Source: an uncultured Lysobacteraceae bacterium (GTDB lineage: Bacteria; Pseudomonadota; Gammaproteobacteria; Xanthomonadales; Xanthomonadaceae). Taken from it: a stretch of 64,000 nucleotides of DNA. The notes beneath the pieces are model-generated. The model was not told the origin of the DNA, did no database searches, and saw only the letters and a list, made by a program, of their open reading frames with translations. Below, one piece after another: positions 38,791-47,170 of this stretch. The stretch covers positions 186,001 to 250,000 of the forward strand of contig CADECF010000001.1 of assembly GCA_902825775.1 (NCBI GenBank), written 5' to 3'. Position 1 is the stretch's first letter. Each line of letters opens with the position of its first letter. The translations under genes and the position numbers were made by a program.

Positions 38791-38890
38791 TCTTTGAACC
38801 CGCATCGCAATCCGAGATGGCTTCGTCGTCGGACGCATGCGCTGGGGAGGCGAGCAGGACGCAATGCCTGTAATTCACATGGGAATATGT

Positions 38891-41800
38891 ATGAAGCATT
38901 TCGCGATAGCCCAGCGTATCGCGTTGGGATTCCTCATCGTAACACCGCTGTTTCCTCTGTTAGTTTGGGCAGAAAAAACTGAAGATCTGCCCAAAGTTAC
39001 ATCTCACGGTCAGTGGCCTTATCCCGGGAATACAGTAGGCGAATGGCCCAGCCACTTGTTCATTGGTAACGCTAGCAACGGGCCGACTATTGAGAATGTC
39101 GACTATGGCTCTGACGCCTTCATCAGCAATCCCGGGACGGTAGATGACGGCCAGGACGCCGCCCAAAAAGACTGCGGCTTAGGCAACCCGATCCTGCCAT
39201 CCACCGGCAACAAGATCGAACCAGAGACCGATTTCGTCTCCACCGGCGAAATGCCGCTATTCCTCAAGCGCACCTACAACCGCTACTGGGACCAGAAAGG
39301 CCTGTTCGGCTACTACTGGCTGAGCAATTTCGACCTGCGCATCGCCAAGACGCCGGACAACAAGATCATCACCGCCTACCGCAGCGACGGCCGCAAGGTG
39401 AAGTACGTCTACAGCGCCGTGCCCAGCGCCGGCTGGTACGAGAACAAGGCGCAGGCGGTGTCGCGCATCGTCGCCAGTGGTAGCGGCTATCTCCTTTACG
39501 GCGAAGACGACAGCCTCGAGACGTATAACGCCGCGGGGCAAATCACCAGCCTCAAGAATCAGCAAGGCATCGGCAATACGTTCGCCTATTCCGGAGGCCG
39601 CCTGCAGCAGGCCACTCACACTTCGGGCCGCAAGGTGCTATTCGCGTGGACCGGCGATCTGTTGACCAGCGTCACCGATCCGGCCGGCAACGTGTTCACT
39701 TATAGCTACTGGAATTCGGCGCCGGGCATCCACCAGCTGGTGTTCGCTTCCCAGCCCGGCACTCCGATTACGACGATCACCTATCACTACGAAATGCCTT
39801 TCAACCCGGGTGCGCTGACCGGCAAGAGCTACAGCGGCGTGCGGTATTCCACCTTCACCTACGATGGCCTCAACTACGCCACCAGCAGCGTGCACAGTGG
39901 CGGTGCCGACAAGCACACCTTCGTTTACAGTTTCGTCAACGGCACGACCAGCGTCCTGCACACCAACCCGTTGGGCAAGAAGACCACGCTGGTGTTCAAG
40001 GGCGGCAAGCTGCAGTCCGAGACCGGTCAGGCTTCTTTGTATTGTCCGGGCGCGACTTATCGCGAGATCACCTACGACGCCAACGGTTACCAGGACAAAG
40101 CTACCGACTTCGCCGACGGCATCACCGACTACGACTACAACGCCAAGGGCCAATTGCTGAAGAAGACCGAGGCGGCCGGCATGCCCTATGCCCGGGTGAC
40201 GCAGTACCAATGGGATCCGGTCAAGAACCGCATCACCCGCGAGACGGCGACCGGCTACCGGCAGACCGACTACACCTACACCGCCAATGGCCGCCCCTAC
40301 CAGATCAAAGTCACCAACCTCAGCGGCAAGGGTGTCGCCAACCAGGTGCATACCACCACTTACAGCTACACCACCCACCCCAACGGCCTGTTGAAGACGG
40401 TCGCGACAGACGGGCCGCTGTCCGGCGATGGCGATGCCGTCACGCAGGAGTACGACGCGTTGGGCAATCAGATCGCGGTCCGCAACAAGCTGAGTCACGC
40501 GGTGAGCTACAGCAATTTCAACGGGCTCGGGTTGCCGGGCCGCATCACCGGTATCAACGGCGCCATCGTCGATTACACCTACGACGCCCGCGGCCGGGTG
40601 CTGGCCGAGAAGCATTACGTCTCCGGCGTTTGGGTCACCACCACGAACGTTTACGACAACCGCGGCCGACGGATCAAAACCACCTCGCCCGATGGCGTGA
40701 CCACCACCTACGCCTACGACGCCAACAACCGTCTGGTGACCATCACCCGGCCGGACAAGCATTCGGCATATGCATCGCTGGGTTCGGACTTCGTCGCGTT
40801 CGAGCGGTTCTTCTACGACCTGGCCGGCAATCCGATCAAGATCGAAAAGGGCGTCGATTACCTGCCCTTGAACGGCTTCGCGCCGCCTGAAGCGTCCGAC
40901 GCCGAAGAACCCGGGTTGTGCCACCCACAGCCCGATTGCGAGATGGATCCGCCCAACCCGCAACCTGCGCGCAAAGTGCTGGTGACTTGGCGCACCTTCA
41001 TCGACTACGACGAACTGGGCCGGGTCCGCGCCCGCCGCGGCAATGCCGGCCAGAACGTGCGGTATACCTACGATGCCAACGGCAACGTCAAGACCCTTGT
41101 CGACTCGTTGAACAAGACCACCACGCTGGCCTACGACGCCCTGGGCCAGCTGATCCAGTCCACCGACCCCAAGGCCGGCATTACGAAGTTCGCGTATGAC
41201 GCCGGCGGCCAGCTGATCCAGGTCACCGATCCGCGCAACGTCATCACCCGCTACGACCTGGACGGCTTCGGCCAGTTGTGGAAGCAGACCAGCCCGGACA
41301 GCGGTACCAGCACGTTCCAATACAATGCGGCCGGGCAGCGCACCCAACTCACCCGCGCGGATGGCGCGGCCACGACCTATGCCTACAACGATCCGCTGGG
41401 CCGCTTGACCGGCATCACGGCGGCCGGGCAAGTGCAGGGCTTTACCTACGATGCCTGCACGGGCGGCAAAGGGCTGCTGTGCCGGGTCACCGATCCCAAC
41501 GGCCAGCTGGATTACACCTACTCGCCGCAAGGCTGGCGGCTGACCCAGAAGCAGAAGATCGGCGCCAGCGGCATCGCCTTCGATCAAGCCTACGCTTACG
41601 ACGTCCAGGGCCGGCTCACCGGTATCAGCTATCCCGGCAATATCGGGGTGGGCTACGGCTACGCCGACGGGCAATTGGCCGCGATGACGGTGAACCTCAA
41701 CGGTAGCGTGAAGACGGTGGTGAATGGCCTGACCTATCAACCGTTCGGTCCGGCCGCCAGTTGGAATTATGGCAACGGTCTGGCCCGCGGCTTCAACCAC

Positions 41801-43174
41801 GACCTGGACGGCCGCGTGTTTGGGCTCAGCACCAAGAACGCCAACAGCGTGCTGCAAAGCCTGACCTACGCGTTCAACGCCAACGATGCTGTCACCAAGA
41901 TCACCAACGGCGCCAATGCCGGTCTCACGCAGACCTACGGTTACGACGAGCTATCGCGGCTGACCACAGTCACGGCGACCAACGCCAACCAGAGTTTGGG
42001 TTACGACAAAACCGGCAACCGCACCAGCCACACCTGGGGCGGGCTGGTGGATACCTACGCCACCGCCGGCATCAGCAACAAGCTCGCCGCCATCAGCGGG
42101 CCGCGCGCCAAGACGTTCATGCACAGCGCCAACGGCAATATCACCTCCGTCGGAGGTGTCGCCTATGCCTACAATGCCTTCAACCGCTTGGGCACCGCGA
42201 CCAAGGACGGCATCAACACAAACTATTGGGTCAATGCCCTGGGCCAGCGCACCTACAAGACCCAGGGCGCACCGAAGGCGAAGGGCTTCATGTACGGCCT
42301 GGGCGGCGAACTGGCCGTGGAGTACGACTGGAGCGGCCCCGGCTGGACCCATTACCTGCGCCTGGGCGGGGAACCGATCGCGATCGTGCGCGGCAGCCAG
42401 TTGTATTTCGTGCACAACGATCATCTCGGGCGGCCGGAACTGGCCACCAACAGCGCCAAAGTGGCGGTGTGGCGCGCCAGCAACTACGCATTCGACCGCA
42501 CAGTGACGCTGGACAGCATCGGCGGGCTCAACCTCGGGTTCCCGGGGCAGTATTACGATGCAGAGACTGGCAACTGGCATAACGGGTTCCGCGATTACGA
42601 CAAGAGCATCGGACGGTATTTGCAGACCGATCCGATTGGGTTGGCGGGTGGGCTGAATACCTACGCCTACGTTGAAGCGAATCCAGTGAATCTGACCGAT
42701 CGTTTTGGGCTCGAATCGGGGGCAGGGTATGCAACTGGTGCATACCAGATGGCCCAACCATCTATGAACGACTGCCAAGCAGAAGCCACGGTGGATTTTG
42801 CAATTAACCTAACCGAAGTCGGTGCAATCGCTCAAATTGCAATGGACGCGCTAGGTGTTGATGTAGACGTAGTAGGAGGGCTGGATGTCTCCGTTGGAGA
42901 ATATGGCGAGATAGACACTCCAGCCGCAGCAGCGGGTCATATAGCCGATGGAGTAGCGCGGCGTTACGAACAAAGAGCCAACCAGCAAGCGGCTAGAGCG
43001 GGTCAGCGCGGAATTCACTATTCCGTTGCAAACGGCAGGCTAAATCGATCGCTGGCATCCCGCGCTAAGGCTGCAATTATTAAGCGTGGGACCGGAGCCT
43101 TAGGTCCGGCAGGTGCTATTGCTCAGTGGGGTATGGACACAAGTAAATGTGGCTGTAGTGGGAGTGATAAATGA
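38891..43174 (+). CDS. Sec-exported Rhs/YD-repeat protein with variable C-terminal tip
   Basis: A 1427-residue Rhs-family protein. Starting at the ATG at 38891 gives a signal peptide (MKHFAIAQRIALGFLIV, cleaved near VWAEK). A DUF6531-like entry follows (GNPILPSTGNKIEPETDFVS), then dozens of YD repeats (YDANG, YDALG and similar) to about residue 1250. The core ends GRYLQTDPIGLAGGLNTYAY, then NPVNLTDRFGLESG. The last 150 or so residues change composition and look like a polymorphic tip: Ala/Gly-rich, then a GIHYSVANGRLNRS segment and a CGCSG end. There is no PAAR or VgrG domain. The tip's activity is not recognised. Its stop overlaps the next gene (ATGA). Confidence 0.85.
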   Translation: MKHFAIAQRIALGFLIVTPLFPLLVWAEKTEDLPKVTSHGQWPYPGNTVGEWPSHLFIGNASNGPTIENVDYGSDAFISNPGTVDDGQDAAQKDCGLGNPILPSTGNKIEPETDFVSTGEMPLFLKRTYNRYWDQKGLFGYYWLSNFDLRIAKTPDNKIITAYRSDGRKVKYVYSAVPSAGWYENKAQAVSRIVASGSGYLLYGEDDSLETYNAAGQITSLKNQQGIGNTFAYSGGRLQQATHTSGRKVLFAWTGDLLTSVTDPAGNVFTYSYWNSAPGIHQLVFASQPGTPITTITYHYEMPFNPGALTGKSYSGVRYSTFTYDGLNYATSSVHSGGADKHTFVYSFVNGTTSVLHTNPLGKKTTLVFKGGKLQSETGQASLYCPGATYREITYDANGYQDKATDFADGITDYDYNAKGQLLKKTEAAGMPYARVTQYQWDPVKNRITRETATGYRQTDYTYTANGRPYQIKVTNLSGKGVANQVHTTTYSYTTHPNGLLKTVATDGPLSGDGDAVTQEYDALGNQIAVRNKLSHAVSYSNFNGLGLPGRITGINGAIVDYTYDARGRVLAEKHYVSGVWVTTTNVYDNRGRRIKTTSPDGVTTTYAYDANNRLVTITRPDKHSAYASLGSDFVAFERFFYDLAGNPIKIEKGVDYLPLNGFAPPEASDAEEPGLCHPQPDCEMDPPNPQPARKVLVTWRTFIDYDELGRVRARRGNAGQNVRYTYDANGNVKTLVDSLNKTTTLAYDALGQLIQSTDPKAGITKFAYDAGGQLIQVTDPRNVITRYDLDGFGQLWKQTSPDSGTSTFQYNAAGQRTQLTRADGAATTYAYNDPLGRLTGITAAGQVQGFTYDACTGGKGLLCRVTDPNGQLDYTYSPQGWRLTQKQKIGASGIAFDQAYAYDVQGRLTGISYPGNIGVGYGYADGQLAAMTVNLNGSVKTVVNGLTYQPFGPAASWNYGNGLARGFNHDLDGRVFGLSTKNANSVLQSLTYAFNANDAVTKITNGANAGLTQTYGYDELSRLTTVTATNANQSLGYDKTGNRTSHTWGGLVDTYATAGISNKLAAISGPRAKTFMHSANGNITSVGGVAYAYNAFNRLGTATKDGINTNYWVNALGQRTYKTQGAPKAKGFMYGLGGELAVEYDWSGPGWTHYLRLGGEPIAIVRGSQLYFVHNDHLGRPELATNSAKVAVWRASNYAFDRTVTLDSIGGLNLGFPGQYYDAETGNWHNGFRDYDKSIGRYLQTDPIGLAGGLNTYAYVEANPVNLTDRFGLESGAGYATGAYQMAQPSMNDCQAEATVDFAINLTEVGAIAQIAMDALGVDVDVVGGLDVSVGEYGEIDTPAAAAGHIADGVARRYEQRANQQAARAGQRGIHYSVANGRLNRSLASRAKAAIIKRGTGALGPAGAIAQWGMDTSKCGCSGSDK

Positions 43175-43611
43175 AATATATTCAGATTCCTCTGGGGCTT
43201 GCTTCAGCCGCGATTACTGTCATGCAACTTTATTATGTGATGGGTGTCGGCAATAGGACCTCGAACAATCAACCTCTTACTGCCTTGTTCTATATATTGT
43301 TCTTCTGGGTATTGTGGGCATACGCACGCATCCCTGCGTACATTCGACCAGTAATTACGCTTAGCAACGCCTCCGTTAGGTGGGCAGCAGCAGTCCTTGC
43401 TTTGGTAGGCAGCGCTGTCAGCCTACATTCCTGCTTGAAAAGTCCAGAGTCATTGGCGGCCATGAGTAATTTCGGAGTACTCAATGTCGCCCTCATGTTT
43501 GGCTATTCGTTAGTTTTTCTTGTTCTTATTTTTGGAGATATATGGCTCGGTTTTTTTGCAAAACTACTAAAGTTTGGCCGGAGATTTCCTGAGAGCAAGA
43601 ACGGTGTATAG
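43171..43611 (+). CDS. small membrane protein, candidate Rhs-tip immunity protein
   Basis: A 146-residue protein with four hydrophobic segments (about 5-25, 37-55, 70-88 and 105-130) and basic ends. Its ATG overlaps the Rhs stop codon by 4 bp, so it is translated with the toxin-like tip, the arrangement of an immunity gene. A membrane immunity protein would suit a membrane-active tip, but this is inference from context. Codon use is visibly more A+T-rich than the flanking housekeeping genes. Confidence 0.6.
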   Translation: MKYIQIPLGLASAAITVMQLYYVMGVGNRTSNNQPLTALFYILFFWVLWAYARIPAYIRPVITLSNASVRWAAAVLALVGSAVSLHSCLKSPESLAAMSNFGVLNVALMFGYSLVFLVLIFGDIWLGFFAKLLKFGRRFPESKNGV

Positions 43612-43622
43612 ATGACCGCTAA

Positions 43623-43670
43623 TATGCCTATGTTGGAGGGAATCCAATTAGCTTCGTCGATCCATATGGG
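43623..43670 (+). pseudogene. end of a lost Rhs core, fused to the next ORF
   Basis: Immediately after an in-frame TAA, this stretch reads YAYVGGNPISFVDPYG, the diagnostic end of an Rhs core. It runs without a break into the reading frame starting at 43671. The rest of the core is missing, so this is the 3' scar of a replaced or excised Rhs core. Compare YAYVEANPVNLTDRFG in the complete Rhs gene. Confidence 0.75.
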
Positions 43671-44093
43671 ATGGATCGAGCGATGCTTACTGCAAGTTAT
43701 TGGAGGAACTTTGGCAGTGGCGCGTACAGCGTATGGGTGGGTTTGGAGAGAGGTGCGAGTACGCTAGGCGCGGCAACCGGATTGCGCGGCGACGCTGCTC
43801 ATCAGAATTATTGGCAAAATCGAGCAAGGGTCGGCAAATTTAATGACAAATATGCGAATGATCCTTGCTTTCGCGCAGAAGTAAACAATGCCTTGAAAAA
43901 GGCATTCAAAGAATTAGACAAAGAGTTAGGGGTGAATGGCGATCTTAGAGGTTATGTTGCGGGCCGTGTCTTGACAGGAACCCTTACATACACTGGGCCG
44001 TTTGCGATAGCAGGGGATACTGGCTACTACGTAGAGCAGGGCATGAGTATGGATCAATCCATCATTGAAGGAATGATCGGAGTATCGCCATGA
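43671..44093 (+). CDS. orphan Rhs C-terminal tip (candidate toxin domain)
   Basis: A 140-residue frame directly continuing a 16-codon Rhs core remnant, so it is a displaced Rhs tip. As an independent gene it could start at the ATG at 43671 (MDRAML), though no good ribosome site is seen. It has an aromatic/glycine-rich N-terminal part, a basic helical middle (NNALKKAFKELDKELGVNGD) and a hydrophobic end (TYTGPFAIAGDTGYYVEQGM). No known toxin motif is recognised. It ends ATGA-overlapping the next membrane-protein gene. Confidence 0.6.
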   Translation: MDRAMLTASYWRNFGSGAYSVWVGLERGASTLGAATGLRGDAAHQNYWQNRARVGKFNDKYANDPCFRAEVNNALKKAFKELDKELGVNGDLRGYVAGRVLTGTLTYTGPFAIAGDTGYYVEQGMSMDQSIIEGMIGVSP

Positions 44094-44326
44094 GCAAAGA
44101 GAATGTTCGGACGGGACAGTATGTTGTCTTCGCACTATTGCTCGTATCCGCGCTCTCATACTGGCTAGCCAAGAGTTGGACAGTGCACTATGTTCTGCTT
44201 GCCCCATTGATTCTATTTCCATGCATCTGGGTATGTGTCGCTAAGGCATCGAACTTGAGAGCAAGGTTGATTTCTGGTGCTGTATTGACGGGATTTATAG
44301 TTCCTGCTCTGTTGGTCGCCATTTAA
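44090..44326 (+). CDS. small membrane protein, candidate immunity for orphan tip
   Basis: A 78-residue protein with three hydrophobic stretches (about 12-28, 33-50 and 60-77). Its start overlaps the orphan Rhs tip's stop by 4 bp, repeating the layout of 43171-43611. It has no similarity in sequence to that protein visible by eye, as expected for immunity proteins matched to different tips. Function inferred from position only. Confidence 0.55.
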   Translation: MSKENVRTGQYVVFALLLVSALSYWLAKSWTVHYVLLAPLILFPCIWVCVAKASNLRARLISGAVLTGFIVPALLVAI

Positions 44327-44328
44327 TT

Positions 44329-44496
44329 ATGCGATTTATGCCGTCGATATCGATAGTCTTGAGTATCTGGATTTTTGTCTGGATCGTTCTCGTTGCTCTG
44401 CTTATCTTGTATTGGAATTCGTTGCCGATGTATGTCTCATGGTCACTTGCAATTCTTGAAGCTCTGCTGGTGCCTGACATACGGACCATAAAGTGA
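44329..44496 (+). CDS. tiny membrane protein (55 residues)
   Basis: Too short for usual gene callers. The ATG at 44329 lies 2 bp after the preceding stop. The product (MRFMPSISIVLSIWIFVWIV at its start) has two hydrophobic stretches (about 7-28 and 33-48) and a basic end. Tight spacing and A+T-rich composition match the adjacent island genes. It may be an extra immunity-like protein or a decayed fragment. Confidence 0.4.
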   Translation: MRFMPSISIVLSIWIFVWIVLVALLILYWNSLPMYVSWSLAILEALLVPDIRTIK

Positions 44497-44585
44497 CATA
44501 TCCTGAAGATAGATGATCCACGGCCAAAACGGGGCCTCTAATCAGATGTCGACCCAAACACTGAGAGCGTTGTTCGAAGTCAACG

Positions 44586-44622
44586 GCTCATGTACGGCCT
44601 GGGCGGCGAGCTGGCCGTGGAG
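44586..44622 (+). pseudogene. short Rhs core fragment (MYGLGGELAVE)
   Basis: About 35 bp matching the complete Rhs gene at 42288-42321 with one mismatch, encoding the same MYGLGGELAVE peptide. It ends abruptly at a palindromic repeat. It is a fragment left by recombination between Rhs copies, and is not translated in a useful frame. Confidence 0.7.
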
Positions 44623-44623
44623 G

Positions 44624-44710
44624 GCCGTAGGCTGGGTTGGCTTCACTAACCCAGCGCATAGCTTGGAAGGTCGTGACGCTGGGTTGATGAAGCCAACCCA
44701 GCCTACGGTC
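44624..44710. repeat. GGCCGTAGGCTGGGTTGGCT-type inverted repeat
   Basis: A unit starting GGCCGTAGGCTGGGTTGGCT and an inverse ending AACCCAGCCTACGG, with about 30 bp between. A partial relative is at 45263-45335. It abuts the Rhs fragment on its left and a secreted-protein gene on its right. Together with that fragment it accounts for most of the 230-bp gap 44497-44728. Confidence 0.8.
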
Positions 44711-44728
44711 CTTCATTAAGGTGAATAT

Positions 44729-45247
44729 ATGCGGCTGAAAATTGCAGAGATTTTCTTAATAGCAATGAGCTTGTTGTTCTCAACAGTATCACGAGCTGAT
44801 GAGGGCAGTGCTTTTGTTCCAGAATTGGTTCTAAAGAACGACTTCGCTGAGTACAAATACTGGCCGGAGCGCCAAGTCCGCCTGGGTTCTAACAAAATAG
44901 AGTTCTGTGGCGGAGATTGGTGTCAATTGGTGGTCGCGCGAAATAAACATTCAATGGCAGCGGCATGGGAAGCGGTCTTCACGATGTTCTATTTCTACGA
45001 CGCTAATAAAGAATACGTATCTCGCAGAGCGGGCTTGGCGCAGAGCATACTCGCTAAGTACAGCGAACGCTGCGCGGATGCTGTGACATCTGATGATAAG
45101 GCGTCTTGCGTTTTGTCCCAGCTGCAAGCGGCGCATCATCTTGAGTATTGGAGAGTTCAATACGATGTTAGCCATAGGTGCGTAAGTGGTTTCAGTTCAA
45201 AGCCGCCTCATTTTACAGGGCGTGGAAAATGTAAGCCGATCAGGTAA
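44729..45247 (+). CDS. secreted protein of unknown function
   Basis: A 172-residue protein. A signal peptide is clear (MRLKIAEIFLIAMSLLFSTV, cleaved near SRADE). The mature region has six cysteines, likely forming disulfides, and begins EGSAFVPELVLKN. No domain is recognised. A+T-rich codon use resembles the upstream island genes, so it probably belongs to the same acquired block. The ribosome site TAAGGTGA precedes the ATG. Confidence 0.6.
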   Translation: MRLKIAEIFLIAMSLLFSTVSRADEGSAFVPELVLKNDFAEYKYWPERQVRLGSNKIEFCGGDWCQLVVARNKHSMAAAWEAVFTMFYFYDANKEYVSRRAGLAQSILAKYSERCADAVTSDDKASCVLSQLQAAHHLEYWRVQYDVSHRCVSGFSSKPPHFTGRGKCKPIR

Positions 45248-45262
45248 AGGGCGGCCTTAAGT

Positions 45263-45335
45263 CAGGGTTGCCTCACTGCCCAGCGCACAGCGAAATCGTG
45301 GCGCTGGGTTGATGAAACCAGCCAGCCTACGGCCT
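45263..45335. repeat. partial CCAGCGC/GCGCTGG repeat
   Basis: A shortened relative of the 44624-44710 element, containing GCGCTGGGTTGATGAAACCAG and a GCCTACGGCC end. The two copies bracket the secreted-protein gene at 44729, which raises the possibility of a cassette boundary. Confidence 0.65.
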
Positions 45336-45379
45336 TACAGCTTTGCGGCTTTGTTGAATTTGTCGTTAGAGTGGTTCCC

Positions 45380-47170
45380 ATGCAGGCACCATCCCAGACT
45401 GGCTGGCTTGAATCCCGCGCCCGGAAGGCATGGTTCGAATTCCGGGCCAATGGACTGCGTATATCCCGTATGGTCAGGGACACCGCCGAACGCATCGGCA
45501 GCCACCCGGTCAGAAGGGTGCCGCGGAAATCCACCGGCTTGTCCGGCAGCATGCTTCTAGCAGAATCCGAGAGCGCGCTCTGGGCCTCTTTGTTCGACGA
45601 CCAAACTGCGATGGTGGCGGGCAAGGTGCAGAACCTTCGCGTCGCCGTGGCACGCTTGAACGGCCTGACGGTCGAGGCTGGAGACGTTTTCAGTTTCTGG
45701 AAAGCCGTGGGGCGCCCGGTAAGAAGCCGCGGCTTTGTCGAAGGCCGGGAGCTGCGCGAAGGCTGCATGATCGCCAGCGTGGGCGGCGGCCTATGCCAAT
45801 TGTCCAACGCGCTCTACTCTGCTGCGCTGGCCGCGGGCATGGAGATCATCGAACGCCATGCCCATTCCCAGGTGGTGCAGGGTTCGCTGGCCGAGCACGG
45901 TCGAGATGCGACCGTGTTTTGGAATTACCTCGACCTGAGGTTCCGCTCGCCTGAAGATTTCGTCGTCGAAACCAAGTTGACCAGGGATCGACTCATCGTC
46001 CGGTTCCATGGCAACGGGCGCTCGCCTGCGGCTGCTTCAACCAGGCGGACTGCATCGCACCCCATGCCGGTAACGCTGGTCGGAAAAGTTTCGGCAGCGC
46101 TCAACGACTGCGGCGATTGCGGGCAAAGCGAATGCGTCGAGCGCTTCGAACCCGAACCCAGAAACGGCAGGACCGCCTACTTGCTCGACGAGGTTTGGCC
46201 CGAATTCGACCGTTGGACCGGCGCACAGGCGCAAGCCGGCGACCTCGCGTTCTTGCCGATGGATGGCGTTCGCCGCAAACGCCCTGGTTACACATGGCCT
46301 TCGCTCAGGAAGGAGGGCGTAAAACTGACCGAGCACCGTTGGTTGACGTTGCGCCGCAGCTTCGCCTCCCGGCGCTTGAAGGCACAAGGCGCTCAGCGAC
46401 AGAAGAAGTTGCTCGCCTTCGACGCCATGTTCGCGCAAGCCTATGCGAAAGCCGTGCCGTACGACATTGAGCGTCTGGTGGTCCCGATCGGCATGCTTGC
46501 CGAGCTTTGGCGTAGCGGTGTGTTGGGCGGTAGGCATGACACGGTATTGATGACCCGCGCGCCCATTGCCATGCTGCAAAGGGATCTCGACCGTGCGGCA
46601 GCGCTTCACCCGGATTCGCCGACCTTGGGTGACTTCAGGGCAGACGAAGCGCTCGTGCAGTGCGAAGATTCCGCGCTGGGGAATGCGGATGGCATCGTTA
46701 CCCCGCACGCAGCGGTCGCGGATTTCTTGGTCGAACGATACGGCATTGCGGCCACCCGCTTGGACTGGGTAGTTCCGGGCCGCGTTGAGAAGTCGGCTCC
46801 CGGTGGACGCGTATTGTTTCCGGCCTCCGCCCTTGGCCGCAAAGGCGCGTACGAAGTCAGGTCGGCGTGCGCCGCTCTGGACTTGGAAGTCTGCGTCATG
46901 GGCAACGCGAACGAAGGCGATCATTTCTGGCGAGGCGTGCGGACATATCCTGTGCGCCCTGCGGCATTATTCGAAGACGTAGGCTGCGTGGTATTGCCGG
47001 CTTTCGTCGAGCATCGTCCGAGATTGCTGTTGAAAGCATGCGCAGCCGGCATCCCGGTGGTTTGCACGCCCGAATGCGGAATACCTGCCGGCTATCCCGG
47101 TGTGACTTTGGTATCCGCGGGCGACGCGCAGGCGCTTGAGGCTTCTTTGAGGATAATTTTCAGCGCTTGA
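45380..47170 (+). CDS. VanW domain fused to glycosyltransferase-like domain
   Basis: A 596-residue fusion. VanW (about residues 80-220) is clear from FSFWKAVG, GFVEGRELREGCM, VGGGLCQLSNALYS and the HAHS motif. A C-x2-C-x4-C cluster (C244, C247, C252) follows. The C-terminal half (about 365-596) resembles a GT-B glycosyltransferase: GRVLFPASALGRKG, FEDVGCVVLPAFVEHRPRLL, a CAAGIPVVCT loop and a final VSAGDAQALEASL. VanW has no settled function. No signal peptide is seen. The ATG at 45380 is preferred over an in-frame GTG at 45371, with AGAGTGG as ribosome site. Confidence 0.72.
   Translation: MQAPSQTGWLESRARKAWFEFRANGLRISRMVRDTAERIGSHPVRRVPRKSTGLSGSMLLAESESALWASLFDDQTAMVAGKVQNLRVAVARLNGLTVEAGDVFSFWKAVGRPVRSRGFVEGRELREGCMIASVGGGLCQLSNALYSAALAAGMEIIERHAHSQVVQGSLAEHGRDATVFWNYLDLRFRSPEDFVVETKLTRDRLIVRFHGNGRSPAAASTRRTASHPMPVTLVGKVSAALNDCGDCGQSECVERFEPEPRNGRTAYLLDEVWPEFDRWTGAQAQAGDLAFLPMDGVRRKRPGYTWPSLRKEGVKLTEHRWLTLRRSFASRRLKAQGAQRQKKLLAFDAMFAQAYAKAVPYDIERLVVPIGMLAELWRSGVLGGRHDTVLMTRAPIAMLQRDLDRAAALHPDSPTLGDFRADEALVQCEDSALGNADGIVTPHAAVADFLVERYGIAATRLDWVVPGRVEKSAPGGRVLFPASALGRKGAYEVRSACAALDLEVCVMGNANEGDHFWRGVRTYPVRPAALFEDVGCVVLPAFVEHRPRLLLKACAAGIPVVCTPECGIPAGYPGVTLVSAGDAQALEASLRIIFSA

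Follow-up and report, generated by a model that had tools for sequence, protein, structure and literature searches.

The DNA examined here is a stretch of 64,000 nucleotides (the window) from contig CADECF010000001.1 of an uncultured Lysobacteraceae bacterium, and the subject is an Rhs/YD-repeat gene and the small genes that follow it. An intact Rhs shell gene with its variable C-terminal region (tip 1) and a membrane protein gene directly behind it (partner 1) is followed by a displaced second pair (tip 2 and partner 2), a scar of Rhs core sequence and an orphan immunity-type gene. As a whole, the locus is best explained, and in our estimate likely so, as an Rhs polymorphic-toxin locus, probably Sec-exported, in which displacement has left three layers. 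Tip 1 and partner 1 would be the pair in use, immunity would be retained behind it, and a cysteine clasp would hold the current tip. New here is the three-cysteine bracket of tip 1, which recurs on unrelated tips. The features are listed below.

Table 1. Coordinates of the Rhs gene, its tips, their partners and the downstream remnants in the window.
Feature	Position	Strand	Remark
Rhs/YD-repeat gene, 1445 amino acids (aa)	38837..43174	+	DUF6531, RHS repeats, Rhs-associated core ending DPIG-X19-DRFG-L
Tip 1, 153 aa, the variable C-terminal part behind ...DRFGL; three Cys in all	42713..43171	+	
Codon of the N-terminal Cys of tip 1 (tip residue 21; residue 19 in the relative)	42773..42775	+	conserved in the relative
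C-terminal Cys-Gly-Cys of tip 1 (tip residues 146-148)	43148..43156	+	conserved in the relative
Partner 1, candidate immunity protein of 146 aa with 3-4 membrane spans, overlapping the Rhs gene by ATGA	43171..43611	+	
Orphan tip 2, displaced, whose frame opens behind a TAA stop with 17 residues of Rhs core end	43623..44093	+	first in-frame ATG at 43671
Partner 2, candidate immunity protein of 78 aa with 3 membrane spans, overlapping tip 2 by ATGA	44090..44326	+	
55-aa hydrophobic open reading frame (ORF) directly after immunity 2	44329..44496	+	no family match in Pfam, NCBIfam
Core scar, 50-column alignment 90% identical to 42273-42322 of the intact core	44575..44622	+	
Palindrome resembling repetitive extragenic palindromes (REP-like), first copy	44618..44715	.	
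Orphan immunity-type gene (172 aa, signal-peptide-like by eye), candidate remnant of a third tip now lost	44729..45247	+	
REP-like palindrome, second copy, 81% to the first	45265..45336	.	

The shell gene was recognized by its RHS/YD repeats (PF05593, E 4.5e-59) and DUF6531 (E 2.5e-17) in Pfam, and by the Rhs-associated core in NCBIfam (TIGR03696, E 1.8e-20). Counted from the ATG at 38891, the protein has an N-terminus that resembles a secretion signal by eye. In the protease motif at the core end both aspartates are kept and the second box has Arg instead of Pro. By analogy with Tse5, as described in PMC10684867, tip 1 is predicted to be cleaved between the L of DRFGL and the E that follows. 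The G+C content at third codon positions (GC3) falls from 0.82 in the core to 0.42 in tip 1, which bears out the composition shift reported at the end of the gene in a preliminary description of this DNA. GC3 is 0.47 in partner 1, 0.46 in tip 2 and 0.50 in partner 2, and that of the upstream purA is 0.85.

The stop codon of the Rhs gene overlaps the start of partner 1 in the sequence ATGA (43171-43174). Such coupling is not rare, being present at 32 of the 141 sampled tips under the rule by which ORFs were chosen. The preliminary description had the gene run through this ATGA into a four-span protein. The coupling is there; the Kyte-Doolittle rule gives three hydrophobic spans for partner 1, and a four-span topology is plausible because the relative in genome G089 shows four. 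Genome searches covered 247 genomes, including that of the window. Tip 1 was matched in four of these, namely its own genome, G089 and two with weak hits containing internal stops; the weak matches at loci L010 and L011 lie in low-complexity frames with stops, have no nearby Rhs-like ORF and were taken as chance. Partner 1 was matched in three (its own genome, G089 and one weak match, in G186), and locus L179, which holds the weak one, has no Rhs-like ORF. Two other candidates for tip 1 were set aside: L030 appears by eye to be a TonB-receptor-like gene, and the similarity of L160 is confined to the first 27 residues. Viral and plasmid searches with tip 1 found nothing.

In G089, which belongs to another genus, the relatives of tip 1 and partner 1 lie in one locus and are joined by the same ATGA. 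Identity to this locus is 62-66% for tip 1, 44% for partner 1 and 46% for the core over the part present on the contig. Tip 1 is thus better conserved than its core, and therefore fits an exchanged module. The contig is the same as one in the Lysobacterales metagenome-assembled genome (MAG) SH_71_25; the genome of the window belongs to the same family as a Lysobacterales MAG. Since the sole convincing relatives of both genes share one locus and its ATGA, pair 1 is well supported as a putative toxin with its immunity protein, inherited together; this joint inheritance was found for pair 1 only and in one relative.

Exchange of the tip is also apparent within the genus. In G032, a genome of the same genus, a core 82% identical over 4 kb carries a different tip, a variable C-terminal region on a conserved core, as was predicted for related strains. 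Downstream of this core, G032 has three more stretches that match part of a core, accompanied by other tips and small ORFs behind them. The core lies at another chromosomal place, where flanking ORFs of at least 100 aa are unmatched in the window. At this locus (L052, G032:C1:752001-770000, reverse strand) the 5′ part of the core stands in a different frame from the rest. Neither the tips nor the partners have a match above the curated cut-off in Pfam or NCBIfam, or any in PHROGs and PADLOC at E 0.05. Pfam matches below the cut-off, to DUF4180 from tip 2 (E 0.068) and to DUF6345 and DUF4167 from the 172-aa protein, were not accepted. When both tips were compared with the sequences in the Protein Data Bank (PDB) by phmmer, no toxin was found at E up to 1; the best matches, ribosomal S3 for tip 1 (E 0.29) and FabG for tip 2 (E 0.025), were taken as chance.

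The core remnant of pair 2 begins eleven bases downstream of the partner 1 gene and corresponds to positions 60-76 of the NCBIfam Rhs core model (E 0.012). Beyond these 17 residues the frame stays open for 139 further codons, up to the ATGA with a three-span ORF. The preliminary description was right on the ATGA and on the three spans; the tip is not coreless, as it had stated, for 17 core residues are kept after the TAA. Tip 2 falls outside the blastp cluster of tip 1, in agreement with the view that the tips are unlike each other. Family matches to tip 2 cover the core remnant or little more, and the tips behind those of the matches that were read are unrelated by eye. Two weak matches to partner 2 (L175 and L176) have no Rhs-like ORF near. 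Viral, plasmid and genome-contig searches with tip 2 found nothing, and in the genome searches tip 2 had no relative and partner 2 none that was convincing. The case for pair 2 is architectural because no relative was found: a tip with a core remnant and a partner stand behind a full-length gene, as in a displaced rhs-CT/rhsI module. Of the two toxin/immunity pairs proposed earlier, pair 1 is thus supported by the joint inheritance seen in G089, and pair 2 is a candidate pair by architecture alone.

Relatives of the 172-aa protein were found in 3 of the 246 other genomes searched. In two of these cases an Rhs tip or core end immediately precedes the relative; around the third, the 1.5 kb that were read contain neither. 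As two of its relatives adjoin an Rhs tip or core end, the gene is best read as an immunity gene that would remain from a third, lost tip. The two REP-like palindromes on either side of 44729-45247 may have aided in moving or preserving this orphan gene.

Exactly three cysteines are present in tip 1 and in its relative, one N-terminal and two as a CxC near the end. The bracket set was accordingly defined as tips with exactly three cysteines, one in the N-terminal part and a CxC in the last 11 residues; tip 2, with a single cysteine, lies outside it. Occurrence of this layout was counted on a non-random sample of 222 pooled tips from loci L001-L269. The family set (loci to L169) was made up of earlier search hits, 30 returned loci and 80 rows picked by hand among the matches listed. 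From its 190 hits, 6 that fell short of the core end (leaving 184), 9 open-ended ones, 1 short one and repeats were dropped to give 141 tips. The class set, from other families of the class, was taken from 30 loci and 56 listed rows of one search; its 102 tips were reduced to 87 by dropping 9 open-ended tips, repeats and short ones, and to 81 by setting aside 6 tips of the window's own genome (no CxC). The limit of 11 residues was picked after the first examples, and the class sample, collected once the CxC rule had been fixed, serves as the check.

In the family set, CxC occurs in the last 11 residues of 23 of 141 tips, against a shuffle mean of 0.64 (maximum 4 in 2000), and in 4 of the 1781 other 11-residue windows of these tips. 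Twenty-two of the 23 CxC tips have exactly three cysteines. A cysteine lies within the first 25 residues in 20 of the 23 (shuffle mean 4.5, maximum 12 in 5000), compared with 50 of 118 other tips, and the middle of the CxC tips is nearly free of cysteine (0.0012 per residue versus 0.014 in other tips). The class sample shows CxC ends on 8 of 81 tips versus 0.63 expected (maximum 4 in 1000 shuffles); exactly three cysteines are found in 6 of these 8 and in 18 of the 73 other class tips. Among all 222 pooled tips, the exact C...CxC layout is present on 28 and the mirror layout, CxC...C, on 2.

The bracket recurs on sequence-unrelated Rhs tips. CxC ends are spread over 19 of 153 sequence clusters, and when one tip is taken per cluster, CxC is found on 17 of 153 versus 1.02 expected (maximum 5 in 1000). 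The two cysteine codons occur in an even mixture, and the surrounding DNA is unalike between tips; the rule is therefore kept at the protein level, and a shared recombination seam as the source of the common ends was rejected. Of the 13 CxC tips scanned against Pfam or NCBIfam, six matched a family at E 0.05 or better, and for three of these the match exceeded the curated cut-off. The families are SprT-like, M15, M12-like, M6/M7-like and, twice, eCIS-core, and in all six tips every cysteine lies outside the matched stretch. The two mirror tips, L109 and L101 (ends DCD and GCD), have CxC at the start and the single cysteine at the end, and share a blastp cluster with the CxC-ended L116 and L096. 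Another cysteine layout was seen at L017, L062 and L111, which have seven cysteines in similar places and end in CxxxC or CC. At L250 (G000:C8:1-8200), which belongs to the genome of the window as well, a stretch of 7 kb has four more Rhs core ends; their boxes read DPDG and their tips are without CxC. No description of the bracket was found in full-text searches of an open library of papers; subscription papers were outside the scope of this search, so its absence is unproven.

What the tips act on, and why their partners lie in the membrane, was considered from the partners of the sampled tips. A partner was counted as envelope-type if it was classed as multi-span, single-span or a lipoprotein or carried a signal peptide, under a simple hydrophobicity rule of our own that visibly errs in individual cases; tips with no usable downstream ORF (3 in the family set, 7 in the class set) were left out. 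By this rule, 90 of the 138 classified family partners are envelope-type and 48 are soluble, and in the class sample 47 of 74 are envelope-type. Where a CxC tip has a peptidase-type match, as six do, its partner is in every case of the envelope class. The preliminary description had argued from the membrane partners to membrane-acting tips. This step is not upheld: as envelope partners are common, peptidase-like tips included, the location of a partner does not by itself tell the action of its tip. That both tips are nevertheless pore-forming or depolarising, with the multi-span partners blocking the pore as for Tse5 or the ionophores of contact-dependent growth inhibition (CDI), seems unlikely to us. 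Both partners are indeed multi-span membrane proteins, by peak hydrophobicity tip 1 stands at rank 121 of 141, and pore-forming Rhs and CDI toxins are known from PMC10684867 and PMC11630599. However, the peak 19-residue hydrophobicity (Kyte-Doolittle) is 1.48 in tip 1 and 0.91 in tip 2, under the transmembrane threshold of 1.6 that was used, though this does not decide on membrane insertion. The solved-structure matches were taken as chance, phmmer against the PDB gave no sequence relation to a known Tse5-like pore-forming tip, and envelope-type partners are frequent in the family, beside peptidase-like tips too. The other explanation is that the partners are membrane-bound because the shell is exported via the periplasm, and the producer would guard its own envelope whether the tip is an enzyme or a pore. 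The Rhs protein has no PAAR domain among its Pfam matches, and VipB (PF05943), the one gene family of the type VI secretion system (T6SS) searched, was found in none of 4 genomes of the genus, so neither of these two marks of a type VI (PAAR-Rhs) effector was seen. A signal-like N-terminus is present on this protein and, by eye, on 17 of 19 full-length relatives, two partial frames being set aside. With no VipB, no PAAR and signal-like starts, the toxins would cross the periplasm of the producer, and the shell is probably Sec-exported rather than delivered by type VI. The export route would be the simpler reason for the envelope partners, and the 90 of 138, with those of the six CxC tips, agree with it. 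Yet 48 of the 138 partners in the same family are classed soluble; the export route alone therefore does not dictate the partner, and we hold this explanation to be about evenly balanced, leaning slightly to the doubtful side.

The bracket itself we infer to be a disulfide or thiolate-metal clasp, formed after export, that would pin both ends of the tip. Its wider form is a portable end-clasp on unrelated Rhs toxin domains, in which a cysteine after the self-cleavage site and a terminal CxC, by disulfide or metal, would tie any cargo; this is offered tentatively, as a reading that may well turn out either way but for which we would not claim the better half. If it is true, the unit of exchange would be a bracketed tip with its immunity gene, beyond a tip and an immunity gene, and the bracket would be a common requirement, be it for folding after export, for protection from proteases or for entry. 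The three cysteines might instead form a metal site by themselves, or link the tip to its shell or to a thiol partner during export, with no end-to-end clasp, a possibility that we regard as real if rather doubtful. Three thiols are an odd number, bracketless tips occur on similar shells, and CxC is a common metal-binding spacing; but the mirror layout, seen on relatives of CxC-ended tips, agrees with a site to which both tip ends contribute. For the displaced pair, chance ORFs in decayed sequence would account for the in-frame stop before the core remnant, for an ATG that comes only at 43671 and for a tip and partner without convincing relatives. The 17 in-frame core residues and the 139 open codons up to the ATGA and the three-span ORF, which follow the plan of the intact pair, make this very improbable. 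Several observations weigh against the reading of the locus as an exported, self-cleaving Rhs system with a clasped tip. The second protease box is DRFG, where DPxG is expected; the pairing of tip 2 with partner 2 is positional, since neither has a convincing relative; an odd number of cysteines is unlike a simple disulfide set; and 3 of the 31 CxC tips (L116, L213 and L263) have five. In the family sample, CxC tips have an envelope-type partner more often than others (20 of 23 versus 70 of 115, p 0.017), but the class sample did not show this association again (6 of 8 versus 41 of 66), which weakens CxC as a mark of envelope-acting tips. For L192, a CxC tip whose likeness to GIY-YIG is by eye only, the downstream ORF is classed soluble and the N-terminus of the shell is not signal-like. 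In the genome of the window, 6 other tips behind DPDG boxes are all without CxC.

With these points in mind, the following course is proposed for the Rhs locus. The shell would be exported across the inner membrane and would cleave itself after DRFGL, freeing tip 1 as a putative antibacterial domain, while partner 1 in the inner membrane of the producer would block tip 1. Pair 2 and the third gene may be retained as immunity against relatives that still use those tips. Once outside the cytoplasm, the cysteine bracket would tie both ends of the tip by disulfide or metal. Export, self-cleavage, release of the tip and protection by the partner are taken over from known families; the clasp is put forward here only.

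Displaced Rhs and CdiA tips with immunity genes were described earlier (Poole et al. 2011, PMC3150448). In that account, the orphan arrays of rhs-CT/rhsI and cdiA-CT/cdiI have displaced C-terminal regions behind the full-length gene, each with an immunity gene; the orphan tips carry varying lengths of core and usually no start signal, and the arrays vary between strains. The present locus is alike in these respects. It differs in the signal-like N-terminus of its shell, in a genus without VipB in 4 genomes, in tips and partners without a family match above the cut-off, and in the three-cysteine bracket of tip 1. The gene at 44729-45247 resembles the T6SS orphan immunity arrays of Vibrio cholerae, as presented in PMC5361080, in that an immunity-type gene is kept and the toxin is gone; here, in contrast, it stands in an Rhs locus, with a core scar and with REP-like palindromes on both sides. 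With Tse5 of Pseudomonas aeruginosa (PMC10684867) the locus has in common a YD-repeat shell, aspartyl protease boxes 19 residues apart and a small C-terminal toxin region. Unlike Tse5, it shows no sequence relation of its tips among solved structures, its genus lacks the type VI sheath gene in the 4 genomes, and the second box is DRFG, not DPxG. Bacterial teneurin-like toxins, some with signal peptides, likewise have YD shells, variable C-terminal toxins and downstream immunity genes according to PMC13018210, and the likeness is stated for the level of the YD shell only.

The locus is a clear fossil record of toxin replacement, of the kind already known from Rhs displacement. The bracket adds a simple rule at the sequence level that connects Rhs tips of unknown kind with peptidase-like ones, and it predicts a structural step shared between them.

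Some minor features of the region remain. The Rfam scan of 42000-46000 at the gathering threshold gave no match. Promoter-like sites numbered 1 versus 3.4 in shuffles, and terminator-like sites 4 versus 1.9. Two bases past the immunity 2 gene, the 55-aa ORF at 44329-44496 may be a second small membrane protein of the module, or may be due to chance.

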